From Rhodocyclales bacterium (GTDB lineage: Bacteria; Pseudomonadota; Gammaproteobacteria; Burkholderiales; Rhodocyclaceae), in contig JAPLQY010000020.1 of assembly GCA_026399475.1 (NCBI GenBank), positions 1 through 64,000 of the forward strand: a DNA stretch of 64,000 nucleotides, written 5' to 3'. Both the position numbers and the translations under genes were made by a program. Below are positions 12,985 through 38,211 of this stretch, one piece after another; position 1 is the stretch's first letter; the number at the start of each line of letters is the position of its first letter. The notes under the pieces were generated by a model. The model had not been told where the DNA came from. It did not search any database and was given only the letters and a program-made list of their open reading frames with translations.

Positions 12985-13011
12985 GAAACGCTCGGCAGCC
13001 CCTGCTGCCCT

Positions 13012-13956
13012 TCAACCGGCGACTTCAACCCGGTCGCGGCCGTCTTCCTTGGCGCGCCGCAAGGCGGCATCAACGCGGGAAACCAGTTCGTCGAGCGATT
13101 CGCCGCGGAACATCTGGGCCACACCGCAACTGAGCGTCACACCCTCACCCGTCGGCAGCCCGCTACCGATCGCCACCATTTCGCGCAAACGCTCGGCGAT
13201 CGGCAGAGCCTCATCCAGGCTCGTATGCGGCAGCAGGATCAAGAATTCCTCACCGCCGTAGCGGACAATCAGGTCCTGGGGGCGCAAACCGTCGACCAGG
13301 CGGCGCGCCATGCGACGCAACACGGCATCGCCGGCGAGGTGGCCGAAGCGCTCATTGAAACGCCTGAAAAAATCGATGTCGGCGATGACCAGGCAGAGTG
13401 GGTCGCCGTCGCGCTCGCAGCGGGCGATGGCCCGCGGAAAGGCCTCAAGCGCCCAGCGTCGGTTGTGGATCCCGGTCAGCGCATCCACGCTCACTGCGTG
13501 TTCGAATTCGAGACTCTGGCTCTGAGCGGAAACCAGCGCCTGATTGTTGTCGCGCATGCGCCCGGAAAGGATGGCCAGGAGGTTGCGCGCCACGCCGTGG
13601 GAGCAATCCACCAGCGACCAGAGCACCTCCTGTGGCACCACCAGGAGTCGCGTGTCCTTTGCCGCCAGCACCAGGGCCGAGGCGGCCTGACCATCCAGCA
13701 GCGACATCTCGCCGACGCAATCGCCGGCACCGAACACCGCATGCGCAGGCAAGCTGCGATCGTTCAGATAAACGCGCAACTCGCCGTCAAGAACCAGATA
13801 CAGGTGGCTGTTGGCCGCACCAGCTTCGAGCAGGTGCTCGCCTCGTTCCAGGTTCAGGCGATGGCAGTGGTCGAGCAGGTGCTCGATGCTTTCCAGGCTG
13901 ACGTTGGCGAACAAATTGGCGTGTTCGAGATGCTGACGGTCTTCGTTATCGATCAT
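13012..13956 (-). CDS. Diguanylate cyclase (GGDEF) with N-terminal cyclic-nucleotide-binding-like domain
   Basis: RYGGEEFLILLP active site; N-terminal cNMP-like fold (LYLVLDGELRVY...GDCVGEMSLLDG). Confidence 0.9.
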   Translation of the reverse strand: MIDNEDRQHLEHANLFANVSLESIEHLLDHCHRLNLERGEHLLEAGAANSHLYLVLDGELRVYLNDRSLPAHAVFGAGDCVGEMSLLDGQAASALVLAAKDTRLLVVPQEVLWSLVDCSHGVARNLLAILSGRMRDNNQALVSAQSQSLEFEHAVSVDALTGIHNRRWALEAFPRAIARCERDGDPLCLVIADIDFFRRFNERFGHLAGDAVLRRMARRLVDGLRPQDLIVRYGGEEFLILLPHTSLDEALPIAERLREMVAIGSGLPTGEGVTLSCGVAQMFRGESLDELVSRVDAALRRAKEDGRDRVEVAG

Positions 13957-14223
13957 GGCGTCACCTGATTTCCCCTGTCTCCGTATGGACAGCATAAATC
14001 AAAATGGCGCAGGCTTTCGCGGCAACGTGTGCTTTGCCTGACAAGCGGTAGCCATGCCCAGCCCAAAGGCACGGATGGGTTATCATGTCGCCCGACTGCC
14101 GCACGAAAAAAAACAGAATGAGGACCGCGCGGCTCCACGCCGGAAACTGCCTGCAAAAATGCTCTCGATTCCCATAACCGGTACGGCGGAACTCCGTCGC
14201 ATCAGATAGATATCTACACACAA

Positions 14224-14892
14224 ATGTTATTTGTTATCGATTTTGATGGCACTCTGGCGCGAAAGGATACGGTCGACACGCTCCTCGAGCAGTTCGCGCC
14301 TGCCGCATGGAAGGATGTCGAGCAGAAATGGTTGCTGGGACACATTACTGCGGTGGAGTGCATGGGACAGCAGATTCGCATGGTCCGGGCCAGCAGGGAA
14401 ACGCTGGAAGAATTCTTTCAGTCCATCGAACTCGATGCGTCCTTCCTGCCCTTCTACCATCATGTGTGCCGGCATGCCGCCGTGGCCATCGTCAGCGACG
14501 GCCTGGATCACCCGATTCAAATCGCCACGCACAAGGCCGGACTGCCCAACATCCCGGTATTTGCCAACCGGCTGCATTACGTCGCAAACGGAATCGACAT
14601 CTCCTTTCCTCATCTCGACACCCATTGCGCGGCCGGCAACGGCGTCTGCAAATGCGCCGTGGCGCGCGACCTGGCGCAGCCTCTGGGCGGGCCGATGGTG
14701 CTGATCGGCGACGGCAAGTCCGATACTTGCCTGGCGCACCGCGCCGATATCGTGTTCGCCAAGAAATCCCTGCGCCGATATTGCGAGGAGCAGGGCATCG
14801 AGCACATTCCCTTCGACAGCTTCGCCGACGTACTGGCGGTCGTAAGAAAATGGGATGTGCATCCTCCCGAAAGACTTTCCCTTGTCGCCTGA
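14224..14892 (+). CDS. HAD-superfamily phosphatase (MtnX/HAD-IB-like)
   Basis: DFDGTL motif I, VSDGLD motif II, IGDGKSD motif IV. Confidence 0.8.
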   Translation: MLFVIDFDGTLARKDTVDTLLEQFAPAAWKDVEQKWLLGHITAVECMGQQIRMVRASRETLEEFFQSIELDASFLPFYHHVCRHAAVAIVSDGLDHPIQIATHKAGLPNIPVFANRLHYVANGIDISFPHLDTHCAAGNGVCKCAVARDLAQPLGGPMVLIGDGKSDTCLAHRADIVFAKKSLRRYCEEQGIEHIPFDSFADVLAVVRKWDVHPPERLSLVA

Positions 14893-14925
14893 ACGGAAGC
14901 CCTGACCGCCTTACCCGGATCACCC

Positions 14926-16299
14926 ATGGACCGAAAAAACCTGACCCTGCTGGAAAAGGACGCGCGCTACTGTTCCTACGGCGACACCGTGCATTACGCC
15001 GATCCGCCCAAGGTGTTCGCTTCCTGCAATGGAAGTTATCTGTACGACGAGGACAACACGCCGTATCTCGACCTGCAGATGTGGTATTCGGCCGTCAACT
15101 TCGGCTACAAGAATCAGCGCCTGAGCGACGCGCTCAAGCGCCAGATCGACACCCTGCCGCAACTGGCCTGCCAGTACCTGCACAAGGAGAAGGTCGAACT
15201 GGCCGAGACCCTGTGCAGCTACATCGAGGAGAAGTACGGCGTCAAGGGTCGCGTGCATTTCAACGTCGGCGGCGCGCAGGCGGTGGATGATTCGCTCAAG
15301 ATCGTGCGCAACCACACCGGCAAGACGATGCAGTTCGCCTTCATGGGCGGCTACCACGGTCGCAGCCTGGGCGCTTCGGCAATCACCTCGAGCTACCGCT
15401 ACCGTCGCCGCTACGGGCACTTTGCCGACCGCGCCCACTTCGTACCCTTCCCCTACTGCTTCCGCTGCCCCTACGGCATGAAAGTGGAAAGCTGCAACAC
15501 CTACTGCCATCATGAGTTCGAGCGCCTGTTCGAAACCGAATACAACTCGTTCTGGGATGACAAGGTCGGCGAATGCGAATTCGGAGCCTTTTACATCGAG
15601 ACCATCCAGGGCACCGGCGGCTACGTCGTGCCGCCCGAGGGCTACATGCAGAAACTCGCCAAAACACTCAAGGAACGCAACATCCTGCTGGTCGTCGATG
15701 AAATCCAGATGGGTGTCTATCGCACGGGCAAGCTGTGGTCGTGGGAAAACTTCGGCATCGTTCCGGACGTGTTCATTTTCGGCAAGGCCATCACCAATGG
15801 CCTCAATCCGATTTCCGGCATCTGGGCCCGTGAGGAACTGATCAACCCGGAAAAATTCCCGCCCGGTTCGACCCATTCCACCTTTGCCTCCAACCCACTG
15901 GGAACGGCCTGTGCGCTGGAAGTGCTGCGCATGACCCAGGAAAAGGATTTCGAGCCGGAAATTCGCGCCCGGGGGGCCTATTTCCTGAAGAAGATAGAGG
16001 AACTCAAGAGACGCTGGAAAGTCGTGGGCGACGTCAGCGGCATCGGCATGGCCCTGCGCATCGAACTGTGCGAAGCCGACGGCTTCACTCCCAGCCGGAA
16101 ACTTGCGGATCGCGTTTTCAACGAAGGCCTCAAGGGCGACCTGCTGGTGGGCGACAAGAAGTATGGCCTGGTGCTCGACATCGGCGGCTACTACAAGAAC
16201 GTCATTACCCTGGCACCCTCCTTGCTGATTACCGAGGAGGAAATCGATCTCGGGATAACCCTGCTCGAAATAGTGCTGCGTCGCTGCGGCGCGGTGTAA
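14926..16299 (+). CDS. Class III PLP-dependent aminotransferase
   Basis: GGYHGRSLGA, VVDEIQMGVYRTG, FGKAITNGLNPISG (PLP lysine region). Confidence 0.88.
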   Translation: MDRKNLTLLEKDARYCSYGDTVHYADPPKVFASCNGSYLYDEDNTPYLDLQMWYSAVNFGYKNQRLSDALKRQIDTLPQLACQYLHKEKVELAETLCSYIEEKYGVKGRVHFNVGGAQAVDDSLKIVRNHTGKTMQFAFMGGYHGRSLGASAITSSYRYRRRYGHFADRAHFVPFPYCFRCPYGMKVESCNTYCHHEFERLFETEYNSFWDDKVGECEFGAFYIETIQGTGGYVVPPEGYMQKLAKTLKERNILLVVDEIQMGVYRTGKLWSWENFGIVPDVFIFGKAITNGLNPISGIWAREELINPEKFPPGSTHSTFASNPLGTACALEVLRMTQEKDFEPEIRARGAYFLKKIEELKRRWKVVGDVSGIGMALRIELCEADGFTPSRKLADRVFNEGLKGDLLVGDKKYGLVLDIGGYYKNVITLAPSLLITEEEIDLGITLLEIVLRRCGAV

Positions 16300-16309
16300 G
16301 CTGCGCCTT

Positions 16310-17167
16310 ATGTCTTTAGCCATACAGCAGCAATTGGGGGCCACGGGCTTCTATGAAAAGCATGGCGACGATGCCGTGCTGCTGGTGCATGGGCTCACCG
16401 GAACGCCGACGGAAATGCGCGCCGTGTCCAAGCGGCTGGGCCGGCAGGGCTTCAGCGTGATGTGCCCGCAACTGGCCGGCCATTGCGGCAGCATCGGCGC
16501 GCTCAAGCGCTCGAAATGGCAGGACTGGTACAAGACTGTCGAGCAGGCCTTCGAGGCGCTCAAGCTGACACACGAACGCGTCTATGTGACAGGCCTGTCG
16601 ATGGGCGCGCTGATGGCGCTCAAACTGGCGGAAGAGAAGGGTTCGCGCGTTGCCGGTCTTGGACTGCTGTCCACCACCTTTTTCTACGATGGCTGGAACA
16701 TGCCGCACCAGCGACGCAAATGGCTGCTGCCCGTGGTGCTCTACAGTCCATTGCGCTATCTTGTCTCCTGGAAGGAAACCGCCCCCTACGGCATCAAGTG
16801 CGAGCGCACGCGAGCCATGGTACATACGGTGCTGACCAATCGCGACGCACAGGCTGCCGAGAAAGTCGGTATTTTCCGCACTCCGGCGGTGACCATCCAC
16901 GAAAGCATCCGGCTGATTCGCGCAACGCGAAAAGCTCTCCCGGGGGTACATGCGCCAACCCTGATCGTACATGCCAACGAGGATGACATGGCCAGCGTCA
17001 AGAATGCACACTACGTGCTCAAACACATCTCTTCGCGCAAGGTGGAAACCTTTTTTGTCGACGACAGCTATCACGTGTTGACGCTGGACAAACGCAAGTA
17101 CGACATTGCCCACCGGCTCGGCGATTTTTTCCATGGCTGCACCGCCCGGCAGCCAGTAGCTGCCTAA
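16310..17167 (+). CDS. Alpha/beta hydrolase (carboxylesterase-like)
   Basis: VLLVHGLTGTPTEM, nucleophile elbow GLSMGA, late DDSYHVL His. Confidence 0.85.
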   Translation: MSLAIQQQLGATGFYEKHGDDAVLLVHGLTGTPTEMRAVSKRLGRQGFSVMCPQLAGHCGSIGALKRSKWQDWYKTVEQAFEALKLTHERVYVTGLSMGALMALKLAEEKGSRVAGLGLLSTTFFYDGWNMPHQRRKWLLPVVLYSPLRYLVSWKETAPYGIKCERTRAMVHTVLTNRDAQAAEKVGIFRTPAVTIHESIRLIRATRKALPGVHAPTLIVHANEDDMASVKNAHYVLKHISSRKVETFFVDDSYHVLTLDKRKYDIAHRLGDFFHGCTARQPVAA

Positions 17168-17182
17168 GAAATCCGCTTTCCG

Positions 17183-18256
17183 GTGGACATCGACCGGGAA
17201 TCCTTAATGCATAATCTGATCGAGCCGCCGTCGCTGCTCGCCTGGTTTCTCGGCCATCCACCGGAAGGATTTTCCAGTCACCCGCTCAGTGGTGCGACGC
17301 CGGCATTTTCCACGAAATTCGATCTGACCACGACCATGGAAACGGAGCAGCGCCGCTGGCTGACAAGGCTTCCGTTCTGGAAACATTGGCAAGGCCTGTT
17401 GCAAGCCCGCACCCTGTTCGTCGGCAGCACGGTGACCGAATACGCGCCGCTGCCTGCCGAACCCGCAGCCGCCGTGCTGGTCGCGGAACTGCTGCGCGCC
17501 GCACGGAACTTCCCGTTTCTGATCATCAAGGACATTCCCTGCGAACCGGTACTGGTGGGCAAGGCCGCCATGGACTACAACCGGGACTTGCTCGCAAGCT
17601 GCGAACAAGCCGGCTTCCTGCGGGTTGCAGGCCAGGCGCTGGCCTTTGTCCCGATTGATTTCGATTCCATCGGAAGCTTCCTCGCCCGCATGTCGCATTC
17701 GCGGCGCAAGGGCATACGGCGCAAGCTCAAAAGCCGCGACGACCTGACGATTCAGGCGCTTCCGGCGGGCGGCCCCGGGTTCGCGGACGAAGCCTTTCTG
17801 GCAGAGCTTTACCGGCTGTATCGCAATGTCTACGACCAGAGCGAGATTCACTTCGACTTGCTCTCCGCTGACTTTTTTCGCAGCGTTCTGCAAGACGCCG
17901 CCAGCGGCGGCGTGGTATTCCTCTATCGCGCCGAAGGGAGGGTGATAGGCTACAACCTCTGCTTTGAATCGAACGGCATGTTGATCGACAAGTACGTCGG
18001 CTTCGCCTATCCGCAGGCCAGGCACTTCAACCTCTACTGCGTCAGTTGGTTCCACAATCTGGAATACGCTGTGGCGCGAGGCTTGAAATGTTACGTCGCC
18101 GGCTGGACCGATCCGGAAATCAAGCGCCAGCTGGGGGCGCAATTCACCTTCACCCAGCACGCCGTGTATGTCCGCAATCCGATGCTGCGGCGCTTGCTGC
18201 GACCTCTCAAGCGCCTTTTCGAAGCGGATTCCCGGTGGCACCTGCAGGCCCGCTGA
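17183..18256 (+). CDS. GNAT-fold N-acyltransferase (BioF2/FemAB-like)
   Basis: RRKGIRRKLKSR, GVVFLYRAEGRVIGYNLCFESNGMLIDKYVG, AGWTDPEIKRQLGA. Confidence 0.65.
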   Translation: MDIDRESLMHNLIEPPSLLAWFLGHPPEGFSSHPLSGATPAFSTKFDLTTTMETEQRRWLTRLPFWKHWQGLLQARTLFVGSTVTEYAPLPAEPAAAVLVAELLRAARNFPFLIIKDIPCEPVLVGKAAMDYNRDLLASCEQAGFLRVAGQALAFVPIDFDSIGSFLARMSHSRRKGIRRKLKSRDDLTIQALPAGGPGFADEAFLAELYRLYRNVYDQSEIHFDLLSADFFRSVLQDAASGGVVFLYRAEGRVIGYNLCFESNGMLIDKYVGFAYPQARHFNLYCVSWFHNLEYAVARGLKCYVAGWTDPEIKRQLGAQFTFTQHAVYVRNPMLRRLLRPLKRLFEADSRWHLQAR

Positions 18257-19098
18257 TCCTGGATTTTGACCAGTCGGTCCTGCCCTTGCCGGGCTGCGAG
18301 CGGCTGGCTCTGGCGAATTGGCAGGAGCGCGTGCGCTTCGGCTGCCCGCTGCAGGTGCTGCAGCGCCTTGCCGGCGAGATCAGACCGGCCACTACAGGTC
18401 GGGCCACGATATTCCTGGGTAGCGGCGACTTCCATCACCTCAGTCATCCGCTGATCGAGGCCCATGCCGATCGCGCCGGGAAGCTGCAGGTCGTCGTCTT
18501 CGACAACCATCCGGACAATATGCTCTATCCGTTCGGCATTCACTGCGGCTCCTGGGTCTGGCATGTGAGCCGCCTGCCCAGCGTGGCCTGCGTGCATGTG
18601 CTGGGCATCACTTCGGCGGATGCGGGGCTGGCTCATGCCTGGGAAAATCGCTTGCGCCCGCTGCGCGATAGCCGGGTCCGCTACTGGTGCGTCGGACCCA
18701 AGCTGAACTGGATGAAATATTTCGGCATCACCGGCAGCCGCAGCTTCGGCTCCGTCGCGGAAATGCTCGATGCCTTTGCCGGGCACATCCAGGCGACCTC
18801 CGGCCTGATCTATTTGTCCATCGACAAGGACGTCCTGGCGCGCAGCGAGGTCCGCACCAACTGGGATCAGGGCGTGATGCGGATGGACGAACTCGGCGCG
18901 GCGATCCGCCTGCTGCAGGGCAGAATCGTCGCCAGCGACATCACCGGGGAAGTTTCTGTTTACCGCTATCGCAGCCGTCTCAAACGTCTAATGAGCGGTC
19001 TCGATGCACAAGCTGCAATTGCGCCAGAGGAGTTGCCCCAATGGCAGGAAAAACATCAGTCGATCAACCGCCAACTGCTGGACTGGCTGAACCCGTAG
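18235..19098 (+). CDS. Arginase/ureohydrolase-like protein
   Basis: DNHPDN and SIDKDVL metal-ligand-like motifs; GTG start overlaps the previous gene by 22 bp. Confidence 0.6.
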   Translation: MAPAGPLILDFDQSVLPLPGCERLALANWQERVRFGCPLQVLQRLAGEIRPATTGRATIFLGSGDFHHLSHPLIEAHADRAGKLQVVVFDNHPDNMLYPFGIHCGSWVWHVSRLPSVACVHVLGITSADAGLAHAWENRLRPLRDSRVRYWCVGPKLNWMKYFGITGSRSFGSVAEMLDAFAGHIQATSGLIYLSIDKDVLARSEVRTNWDQGVMRMDELGAAIRLLQGRIVASDITGEVSVYRYRSRLKRLMSGLDAQAAIAPEELPQWQEKHQSINRQLLDWLNP

Positions 19099-19101
19099 CG
19101 C

Positions 19102-19488
19102 CTATGTATCCGGATGCCCGGCCTTGCTCAGGCTCAGGCACACGATTCCGAGCACGATGCTGACGCCGCCCAGGCACTGCATCAGGCTTAGCTTCTCGTC
19201 GAAAAACAATACCGAAACAATCAACACCATCACGACTTCCAGGTGCGAGGCGGCAAATGCCGGACCCACCGGCGCGTGCTTGAGCAGCGTCATCCAGGTG
19301 GCGAAGGCGCACAGGTAACCCAGCACTGCGGCCCAGGTCCACGGACTGGAGAGAATGTCGCGCAGCCAGTGCAGATGCGGAGCAAATTCGCCGGCCTGCA
19401 TGCCGGCCAGCTTGAAGGATATCTGGGTGCAGGTATCGAAAAGCATCAGCGCACCAAAGCCGATGACATAGAAGCGCGGCGTACTCAT
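19102..19488 (-). CDS. SMR/EamA-like small transporter subunit
   Basis: About 128 aa, four predicted TM helices, VVMVLIVSVLFFDEKLSLMQCLGGVSIVLGI. Confidence 0.75.
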   Translation of the reverse strand: MSTPRFYVIGFGALMLFDTCTQISFKLAGMQAGEFAPHLHWLRDILSSPWTWAAVLGYLCAFATWMTLLKHAPVGPAFAASHLEVVMVLIVSVLFFDEKLSLMQCLGGVSIVLGIVCLSLSKAGHPDT

Positions 19489-19853
19489 GTGCCCACCCCG
19501 GCGAAGCCGCCCGCCATGGCCACACCCATCGAAATCAACCACATTCCCGCCACCCGCATGCGGTCCAGGCGTTCATGGAACAGCAGTTTGCCGGCCAGCA
19601 TGACGACGACGATATTGATCGACCCGATCAGCACCGCCAGCGACAGCGGTATCAGCGACAGGAGCGCCAGCCAGGCGAAAAATTCGAACACGAAACAGCC
19701 CAGGCCCAGCCACATGACGGGCAACGACAGCATGGTCTTCCAGCGCCGCCACTCGGTGTCATGCTCTGTCACGGCCACCGCCTTCAAGGCCAGATGCCCG
19801 GCCGTGTCCAGCACGGCATTCAATATCCAGAAAAACAGGGCGGTAGCAGACAT
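19485..19853 (-). CDS. SMR/EamA-like small transporter subunit (partner)
   Basis: 122 aa, four TM helices, ends ATGA-overlapping with the partner gene. Confidence 0.75.
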   Translation of the reverse strand: MSATALFFWILNAVLDTAGHLALKAVAVTEHDTEWRRWKTMLSLPVMWLGLGCFVFEFFAWLALLSLIPLSLAVLIGSINIVVVMLAGKLLFHERLDRMRVAGMWLISMGVAMAGGFAGVGT

Positions 19854-19877
19854 GGTTCGAGTCGGACTGATTGAGTT

Positions 19878-20639
19878 TCAGGGCTTGGGGTCGAACTGAT
19901 AAGCCAGTTCCGCCACCCCGCGCCGGATCAACTCCATCGCCGCGGGTACTTCTTCCGGCGCACCGCGCACCCCGAGTTCGATGTGGCGCTGAACCTCATT
20001 CGAGCCAAGAAAGGGCAGACTGAATACCTTGACACCGGGATGGTCCGCCTCAACGCGAAGCATCAGCGGCGTCAGTGCGCTCTCGATGCCTTGCCAGACC
20101 AGGATCGCGGCTTCCGCCGAAGGTCGCTGGTTGAAGCAATGGGCATATTGGGTATCGAGCACCCACTCGATCATCGGCCAGGCCATTTGCGGAAAGCCCG
20201 GCATGAAGTGATGATCGCCCCAGGAGAATCCGGGAATGCGGTTGAACGGATTGGGGATGATCCGGCTGCCGAGAGGATACCGTCCCATGTCGAGCGCATA
20301 GTCAGTGACTTCGCGACCGATCTCGGCATAGCGACCGCGAATCTCGCGTTCGGCCTCCGGATGCAGCACGAGCTCGACCCCGACGGCGGCCGCGGCCGCC
20401 TGCCGCGTGTGGTCGTCGGGCGTGTTGCCGATGCCGCCGCAACTGAACACGATGTCGCCGGCAGCGAATGAACGGCGCAAGGTCTCGGTCAGGCGCTCCC
20501 GGTTGTCGCCGTGGTACAGCGCCCAGTCCAGCGTCAGGCCGCGCGCGGCGAGCAGTTCGACAATCCGGGCGAAATGCTTGTCCTGGCGTCGACCGAGGGT
20601 GATCTCGTCGCCAATGATCAGGGCACCGATGCCTTTCAT
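19878..20639 (-). CDS. CinA/MoaB-like molybdopterin-binding domain protein
   Basis: MKGIGALIIGDEITLGRRQDKH, SCGGIGNTPDDHTRQA. Start placed at ATG 20639. Confidence 0.85.
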   Translation of the reverse strand: MKGIGALIIGDEITLGRRQDKHFARIVELLAARGLTLDWALYHGDNRERLTETLRRSFAAGDIVFSCGGIGNTPDDHTRQAAAAAVGVELVLHPEAEREIRGRYAEIGREVTDYALDMGRYPLGSRIIPNPFNRIPGFSWGDHHFMPGFPQMAWPMIEWVLDTQYAHCFNQRPSAEAAILVWQGIESALTPLMLRVEADHPGVKVFSLPFLGSNEVQRHIELGVRGAPEEVPAAMELIRRGVAELAYQFDPKP

Positions 20640-21358
20640 AGTTCTATGCCTCCTTCCTGGCGCTGACGCCGCAGTGCCGCAAGTCCGAGGTGCACGAAGA
20701 CCAGTGCCGTGAAAGCGGGCGCCAGCAGATTGGCCAGAGGCACATGCGCCGCGGCGGCGGTACCGAGACCGGCGAAGTAGAAGCGGCTGCGATTCTCCTC
20801 GACCAGACGCTGCATCTCGGCGCGCGTCGCATGTTCGGCCAGGGCATCGAAGCGGAAGGTTCGTTGGTTCAGCCAGGTGCCCCACAGCAGCGGCAATACC
20901 AGCAGCGCGCCGGGAATCAGCAGCAGGGGCAGCATCGCCAGGCAGCCGACGACAAAGATCACGCCGGCCCCCAGTGTATTGCCCAGGCTGCCCCAGAACA
21001 CGTTCTCGCCATGACGGCCTAGTTCCGGATAGTCGTGCGCTGCCACCAGGTTGATCAATCGCGGCAAGGCAAACACCGCCACCAGAAGTATGGCGGTGAT
21101 GTAGACCAGCGAGGCAAAGGCCGCCAGCAGCAGGAACACGGCTGCCCAGTGAGCGACCCACTCCCAACCTGACCAGGGCAATTGCGGGACCATGCTCACA
21201 ATACGCGCCGTCAGCGCCACGCCGTGCGCCCAGACTGCAAAGGCGACGGAGACCCACAAGACCAGCGCCACCAGCGGCGGCCAGATTGCCTGCCACAACA
21301 CTTCGCCCCGCGTCAGGTCGCGCAGCGATTTGGTGAAGGCAACAAAGACTTCCATCAT
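20636..21358 (-). CDS. EI24-domain (CysZ-like) membrane protein
   Basis: Multiple TM helices; GTWLNQRTFRFDALAEHAT and FNLLAPAF-type C-terminal region. Confidence 0.75.
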   Translation of the reverse strand: MMEVFVAFTKSLRDLTRGEVLWQAIWPPLVALVLWVSVAFAVWAHGVALTARIVSMVPQLPWSGWEWVAHWAAVFLLLAAFASLVYITAILLVAVFALPRLINLVAAHDYPELGRHGENVFWGSLGNTLGAGVIFVVGCLAMLPLLLIPGALLVLPLLWGTWLNQRTFRFDALAEHATRAEMQRLVEENRSRFYFAGLGTAAAAHVPLANLLAPAFTALVFVHLGLAALRRQRQEGGIEL

Positions 21359-37121: not shown

Positions 37122-38211
37122 TCAAAAATTCCTGGTGAACCACGCCCTCATCCGCGCCAGAACCTGCCCAAAATTTCTTGGGCTCTGCGCCTTCATGCCG
37201 CGGTGACGCTGCGCCACCCCCTCCAACAACAAGCCCATCGCCGTGGAGTAGCGCGGATTACGCACGTAATCGCGGAGATTGCCGTCGTAATGCGGCATCG
37301 ACAACTTCACGGTATTGTGAAAAACCTCCTCCCCCAGATCGGCCATGCCCGGCATTTGCGCGGCGCCCCCGGTCAGCACGATGCCCGCTCTCAGCAGGCG
37401 CTCCTTGCCGCTGCGATGCAGCTCTTCCTGTACCTTCTGGAAGATTTCCTCGACACGCGGCTGGATGAAGCCCGCCAGGGTCTGGCGCGACAGCTGGGTC
37501 GCCGGACGATCGCCGACGCCGGGCACTGTGGCGGATCGCGCCGTGCACGAAGACAGCTACGTCGGTGGTGCCGCCGCCGATATCGACCAGGCAGACGCCG
37601 ACATCCTTCTCGTCCTCGGTCAGCACCGCGTAACCTGAGGCGAGCGGTTGCAGCACCAGGTCGACCACTTCGAGGCCGCAGCGATGCACGCATTTGACGA
37701 TGTTCTGCACCGCCGTCACCGCGCCGGTGACAAGATGCACCTTGACGTCAAGCCGCTTGGCATCCATGCCGATCGGCTCCTTGACGCCGTCCTGGCCATC
37801 GACGATGAACTCCTGCACCAGCGTGTGCAAAATCTGGTCGTCGGCCGAAATCGACGTAGCATTGGCCGCCTCGATCGCGCGCTCGACATCGAACTGGGTG
37901 ACCTCCTTGTCGCGCACGACGGCCATGCCCGAAGAATCCTTGCTCTTGATATGGCTGCCGGCGATCCCCGTATACACCTCGCGCACCTTGCAACCCGCCA
38001 TCATCTCCACTTCGGCGATCGCCCTGGAGATCGAATTCACGGTGGCTTCGATGTTGATCACCATGCCGCGCTTCAAGCCGCTGGACTCCTGGGTGCCCAG
38101 CCCGAGTATGCCCAGCCGACCCTCGGCATCCAGCTCGCCGACGATGGCGACGATCTTGGAGGTGCCGATGTCGAGGCCGACGATCAGGTCACGTTTCGCT
38201 TCTTTACTCAT
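37122..38211 (-). pseudogene. ftsA: ftsA with internal deletion and frameshift (or assembly error)
   Basis: N-terminal part (37258..38211 frame) matches FtsA to GGGTTDVAVFVHGAIRHS; the remainder continues in a second frame from VPGVGDRPATQLSRQTLAGFI to 37122; roughly 48 codons are missing. Confidence 0.85.

Follow-up and report, generated by a model that had tools for sequence, protein, structure and literature searches.

A mobile seven-gene cassette of a Rhodocyclales bacterium and its possible role in making a membrane amine lipid

Five adjoining enzyme genes on the plus strand at 14224-19098 of contig JAPLQY010000020.1, from a Rhodocyclales bacterium, raise the question of what a phosphatase, an aminotransferase-like enzyme, a hydrolase, a GNAT-type transferase and an arginase-like protein would make together. 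All coordinates refer to the window, the 64,000-nt stretch of this contig that was analyzed. The initial annotation, made from the sequence alone, had described the five genes as an operon for an amine, guanidine or aminoacyl metabolite that fits no recognized pathway, and a full-text search of the open-access literature for the gene combination likewise returned no described pathway. The five genes are part of a seven-gene cassette, and here it is proposed, with a probability of about one half, that this cassette makes an amine-containing acylated lipid, which is then flipped across the inner membrane in a regulated remodeling of the envelope. At present, each gene is annotated on its own under a general name such as "arginase", "GNAT" or "EamA". 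If the proposal is true, the cassette would represent a new class of lipid and a way of remodeling the envelope that is both regulated and transferable, with carriers that include conjugative rhizobial and agrobacterial plasmids and Gilliamella. A FemAB family, an arginase-fold subfamily and an SMR subtype would then also have functions assigned.

A seven-gene block with an empty site

The five open reading frames (ORFs) are present as first described, with intergenic gaps of 33, 10 and 15 bp followed by a 22-bp overlap between the GNAT stop at 18256 and the arginase-like GTG start at 18235, and this arrangement fits co-transcription. The boundary of the operon had been drawn too short, however, since it omitted two small membrane proteins (SMR1 and SMR2) that are encoded directly downstream on the minus strand, convergent with the enzyme genes (Table 1). 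The GNAT start is probably the ATG at 17207 rather than the annotated GTG at 17183, because an MHNLIEP stretch is also where the relatives begin (their N-terminus reads M(H)NLIEP); the gap before this gene would then become 39 bp.

In six genomes of the same genus the site is free of the operon. The flanks adjoin there with none of the seven genes in the stretch, the TldD gene, with or without the GGDEF gene, lying next to the CinA-like gene with about 20-140 bp between the matched stretches, and an operon-bearing relative has all seven genes between the same flanks. Because the flanks are closed in the six congeneric genomes, the cassette is a block of about 5.9 kb that was gained or lost whole, with the SMR pair as a member.

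Table 1. Genes and extent of the cassette in the window
Feature	Position	Strand	Basis and remarks
MtnX-like HAD-IB phosphatase, 222 aa	14224..14892	+	PF12710; TIGR01489 subfamily cut-off; motifs DFDGT, GDGxSD
Class-III fold-type I PLP enzyme (aminotransferase or racemase), 457 aa	14926..16299	+	PF00202; K287 invariant
Alpha/beta hydrolase, carboxylesterase/lipase-like, 285 aa	16310..17167	+	PF12146; GLSMG in L009 ortholog
FemAB-like double-GNAT transferase	17207..18256 (annotated start 17183)	+	PF04339/PF13480; predicted MprF/FemX/Sba18-like fold
Arginase-fold metallohydrolase, 287 aa	18235..19098	+	PF00491; metal-ligand motifs; predicted fold
SMR1, small EamA/SMR membrane protein, ArnF-like	19102..19488	-	start ATG 19488; longer ORF from 19542
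SMR2, second SMR subunit, ArnE-like	19485..19853	-	4-bp ATGA overlap with SMR1
Cassette extent	13996..19877		between cNMP-GGDEF gene and molybdopterin-domain (CinA-like) gene; absent in six congeneric genomes

Distribution and horizontal spread

A scan with the arginase-like protein, using one genome per species, returned 30 loci. Gene maps of related loci were built from composition-scored gene calls and homology-anchored mapping, and the latter placed the seven genes together in Rhodocyclales, Novimethylophilus (Methylophilales), Xanthomonadales, Orbaceae (Orbus and Gilliamella) and metagenome-assembled genomes (MAGs) of Acidobacteriota. Gene order and strands vary between these lineages, and across orders and phyla the members stay adjacent, with 40-80% identity. 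This conserved grouping exceeds chance; the neighborhood on which the initial annotation had staked its operon is conserved. Among 398 sampled Pseudomonadota genomes, the class-III gene was found in 26 (13 of 213 genera, ~6%) and the arginase-like gene in 16, all 16 of which also had the class-III gene (Fisher P = 4e-22, relatedness not corrected).

Plasmid-borne syntenic sets are present in Rhizobium, Agrobacterium, Phyllobacterium and Xanthomonas, and a Bartonella plasmid has a partial set. In a Roseomonas mucosa plasmid with an otherwise similar set, the class-III enzyme is swapped for a glutamate-1-semialdehyde-aminomutase-like enzyme (L080:6472-7815; 22% identity). The class-III gene was found in 34 plasmid records, with the arginase-like gene in equal record numbers per genus. 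In the class-III enzyme tree the Bartonella copy clusters with gammaproteobacterial copies, a placement in keeping with horizontal spread. The seven-gene set is horizontally mobile, scattered over Pseudomonadota and some Acidobacteriota MAGs. A scan of viral contigs returned one weak relative only (28%), and a role in anti-phage defence was rejected, as there was no PADLOC match.

Enzymes of the cassette and a proposed pathway

Pfam gathering cut-offs were applied throughout, with NCBIfam equivalog or subfamily cut-offs for specific assignments, and all five enzyme labels of the initial annotation correspond to Pfam matches above the gathering cut-offs. The class-III enzyme, dependent on pyridoxal 5'-phosphate (PLP), is the most highly conserved member of the set (61-97% identity across phyla); it matches Aminotran_3 (PF00202) with 238 bits against a cut-off of 30.5, and its PLP-binding lysine is invariant in aligned relatives. 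All listed NCBIfam matches to specific equivalogs (GabT, ArgD, racemase, lyase) are far below their cut-offs, and the enzyme is left as a transaminase or racemase because its nearest solved relatives include both alanine/serine racemase and GabT-like enzymes. The HAD phosphatase (PF12710, 42.7 bits), whose two motifs are invariant in 17 aligned sequences, reaches the MtnX-like HAD-IB subfamily model (TIGR01489, 85.1 vs 81.55 bits), and not the MtnX equivalog (TIGR03333, 92.3 vs 303.2 bits). Together, these two enzymes may convert a phosphorylated keto precursor into a head group of the amino-alcohol or amino type. By analogy only, this resembles the RtxA formation of serinol, in which a dihydroxyacetone phosphate aminotransferase step and a dephosphorylation (PMC3222319) likewise lead through amino transfer and phosphate removal to an amino alcohol.

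The transferase has FemAB_like (56.8 bits) and Acetyltransf_6 (46.7 bits) domains and is predicted to adopt a double-GNAT fold (pLDDT 88.9), the top 26 PDB fold matches of the model being MprF-type aminoacyl-phosphatidylglycerol synthases, FemX and the aminoacyl-tRNA-dependent peptide synthases Sba18/Sbb17. Despite this likeness to MprF and FemX it belongs to another sequence family (PF04339/PF13480) and, unlike MprF, has no fused transmembrane flippase domain in its 357 aa as annotated (Pfam). It would form an amide bond onto the head group, with aminoacyl-tRNA or acyl-acyl carrier protein (ACP) as the donor. Peptidoglycan bridge synthesis, suggested by the FemAB label, was rejected, as the set has no recurring muropeptide-ligase partner and the dcw cluster of the window is ordinary apart from ftsA.

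The arginase-like protein matches Arginase (PF00491) with 31 bits against a cut-off of 22, its metal-ligand motifs GSGDxHH, FDNHxDN and DKD (H, DxHxD, DxD) are invariant in aligned relatives, and its model (pLDDT 92.9) matches the folds of agmatinase, formimidoylglutamase and arginase. The structure-based search put forward as a check on the GNAT and arginase-like proteins returned MprF/FemX-type transferases and ureohydrolases, respectively. This enzyme may hydrolyze a C-N bond of the intermediate, in a guanidino, amidino or similar group. The alpha/beta hydrolase (Hydrolase_4, PF12146, 82 bits), with the nucleophile motif GLSMG in its ortholog at locus L009, may next trim an ester or thioester, and the SMR1/SMR2 pair may last flip the product across the inner membrane. 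The hydrolase also has a weak match to TIGR03101, and the combination of a FemAB-like protein, an alpha/beta hydrolase and ACP recalls the genes associated with exosortase A (PEP-CTERM); in contrast to these, no exosortase was seen near the cassette, and the transferase does not fall under the exosortase-associated FemAB model because no NCBIfam model matched it.

A more specific proposal is put forward only tentatively: a so far undescribed class of membrane aminolipids, mobile and regulated by a two-component system, in which a FemAB/MprF-like transferase and then an arginase-fold hydrolase would act on a lipid intermediate and a dedicated SMR heterodimer would flip the product. For example, an arginyl or amidino lipid could give a cationic product, an ornithyl-type or amino lipid. 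The modification of envelope lipids together with an SMR flippase is known; the lipid class itself may be new.

Partner genes, alternatives and points against a lipid product

The gene set is modular. Additions next to the core in relatives include a FabF-like ketosynthase, an ACP, a DegT-family PLP enzyme and an OlsE-like FA_hydroxylase, and further ones are two-component systems and a DevA/DevC-type ABC exporter with a TolC-like protein (DevBCA-TolC), the latter type present in the Xanthomonadales and Agrobacterium copies. The Rhizobiales copies add FA_desaturase and cyclopropane synthase. MipA/OmpV is encoded beside the cassette in 9 of 58 loci, in separate lineages (among them L037:2210-2944, L139:11791-12561 and L092:15868-16575), and on Agrobacterium plasmid pAt2788a the genes after the set encode a typical envelope-modification pair, a phosphoethanolamine-lipid A transferase (EptA) and a diacylglycerol kinase (L090:18288-20323). 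Such richer versions would have their own acyl supply (ketosynthase and ACP), a second PLP enzyme, acyl tailoring by the desaturase, the cyclopropane synthase and the OlsE-like hydroxylase, the DevBCA-TolC exporter and a two-component switch. The genes for acyl supply and tailoring, the flippase-like SMR pair, the exporter, the outer-membrane neighbors and the two-component control favor an envelope lipid, and the PLP enzyme, the phosphatase, the MprF/FemX-like transferase and the arginase-fold hydrolase favor an amine-containing product. Behind the copy on the Bartonella plasmid lie genes for an AlgX-like protein and an MBOAT O-acyltransferase (L079:9900-12427); this MBOAT was set aside as lipid evidence because it is paired with the AlgX-like protein.

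Some of the same partners would suit a secondary metabolite, a secreted amino-polyketide or lipopeptide-like compound made with the ketosynthase, ACP, PLP enzymes and GNAT and exported by DevBCA-TolC and the SMR pair. The ketosynthase and ACP and the dedicated ABC-TolC exporter of Xanthomonadales and Agrobacterium agree with this, as do the patchy distribution, the plasmid location and the horizontal spread. However, no adenylation or ligase enzyme is among the recurring partners, the cassette of the window is without exporter, ketosynthase and ACP, and the fatty-acyl tailoring genes with the MipA/OmpV and EptA neighbors suggest a membrane, which leaves such a compound a doubtful second choice to the amine lipid.

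Among described lipids, the ornithine-lipid pathway (OlsB, OlsA, OlsE) shares a GNAT-type transferase and, in some relatives, the OlsE-like hydroxylase; it differs in that none of the five cassette enzymes has an OlsB- or OlsA-type Pfam or NCBIfam match. This pathway is not known to have a counterpart of the PLP enzyme, the HAD phosphatase or the arginase-fold enzyme of the cassette.

Several observations weigh against an amine lipid as the common product. We infer the product class and every reaction step from the gene content, conservation, co-occurrence, gain or loss as a block, conserved residues and predicted folds described above. The fold matches of the transferase are at TM ~0.5-0.6 and 10-20% identity, and the donor is not fixed because of this low likeness (TM ~0.5). 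The lipid-tailoring genes occur in the sets of other lineages and not in the cassette of the window, whose lineage returned no DegT ortholog and no dedicated ketosynthase ortholog. In Rudaea, three separate sites hold GNAT and arginase-like genes, hydrolase, ACP and ketosynthase genes, and DegT, SMR1, SMR2 and OlsE-like hydroxylase genes, respectively (the last of these at L062:9558-12650 and L063:9830-13129), so that the pathway also exists dispersed, and no close class-III ortholog was found there. Genome G073 has the class-III enzyme, HAD phosphatase, hydrolase, SMR pair and exporter and returned no GNAT or arginase-like match, and some lineages have only the hydrolase, class-III enzyme and HAD phosphatase, with or without ketosynthase and ACP. 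With modules dispensable in this way, one common chemistry is not proven. The SMR proteins also count here: ArnE/ArnF are among their best NCBIfam relatives, at 23-37 bits vs cut-offs of 92-99, and both subunits have Asp at the central position in beta- and gammaproteobacterial copies, where lipid-type SMRs often carry Asn (PMC9574504).

An Asp at this position would suit a cation, and some members of the SMR family export guanidinium and polyamines (PMC9574504). A guanidine or polyamine pathway would have the arginase-fold enzyme, with its conserved metal-ligand motifs, hydrolyze a small guanidino compound, the GNAT acylate the amine and the SMR pair export the product. This is unlikely, since the agmatinase equivalog is far from reached (TIGR01230, 17.9 vs 174.3 bits) and the desaturase, cyclopropane synthase, ketosynthase and ACP partners would be left unexplained. 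Moreover, no Rfam regulator, guanidine riboswitch included, matched at 13000-21000 of the window at E up to 1, and eight related loci returned only two tRNAs at the gathering threshold, for which reason guanidine metabolism under a riboswitch was rejected. From the product theme of the initial annotation, the amine or aminoacyl part fits the cassette; a soluble guanidine metabolite fits less well, as the recurring partners point to a membrane or envelope lipid and no guanidine riboswitch or other Rfam regulator is present.

The SMR pair also recalls the Arn operon, where the ArnE/F subtype is a lipid flippase (PMC9574504) and an adjacent pair of small SMR subunits, ArnE/ArnF, is likewise encoded with biosynthetic enzymes. 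Many relatives of the cassette further resemble it in an adjoining DegT aminotransferase, related to ArnB/PseC over its N-terminal half, and in two-component genes nearby, and one copy lies beside EptA. An Arn-like system with unusual enzymes, modifying a lipid-linked sugar or lipid A directly, is nonetheless the least probable of the alternatives considered. The conserved gene sets examined show no Arn glycosyltransferase or formyl-sugar enzymes and no recognized counterpart of ArnA, ArnC, ArnD or ArnT (a whole-genome search was not made), neither the window genome nor a Gilliamella genome returned a DegT ortholog, and the SMR subunits differ from ArnE/F in the central residue and scores given above.

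A positional link of the cassette to the dcw cluster at 36-52 kb of the window was rejected, as the flanking housekeeping genes close up where the cassette is absent. This cluster is ordinary apart from ftsA, which is broken (minus strand, 37122-38211): its N-terminal part (37258-38211) continues in a wrong frame, and a C-terminal part lies on an overlapping ORF that is read in a different frame (37122-37526). Because ftsA is essential, this probably corresponds to an assembly error or a small deletion in the draft genome.

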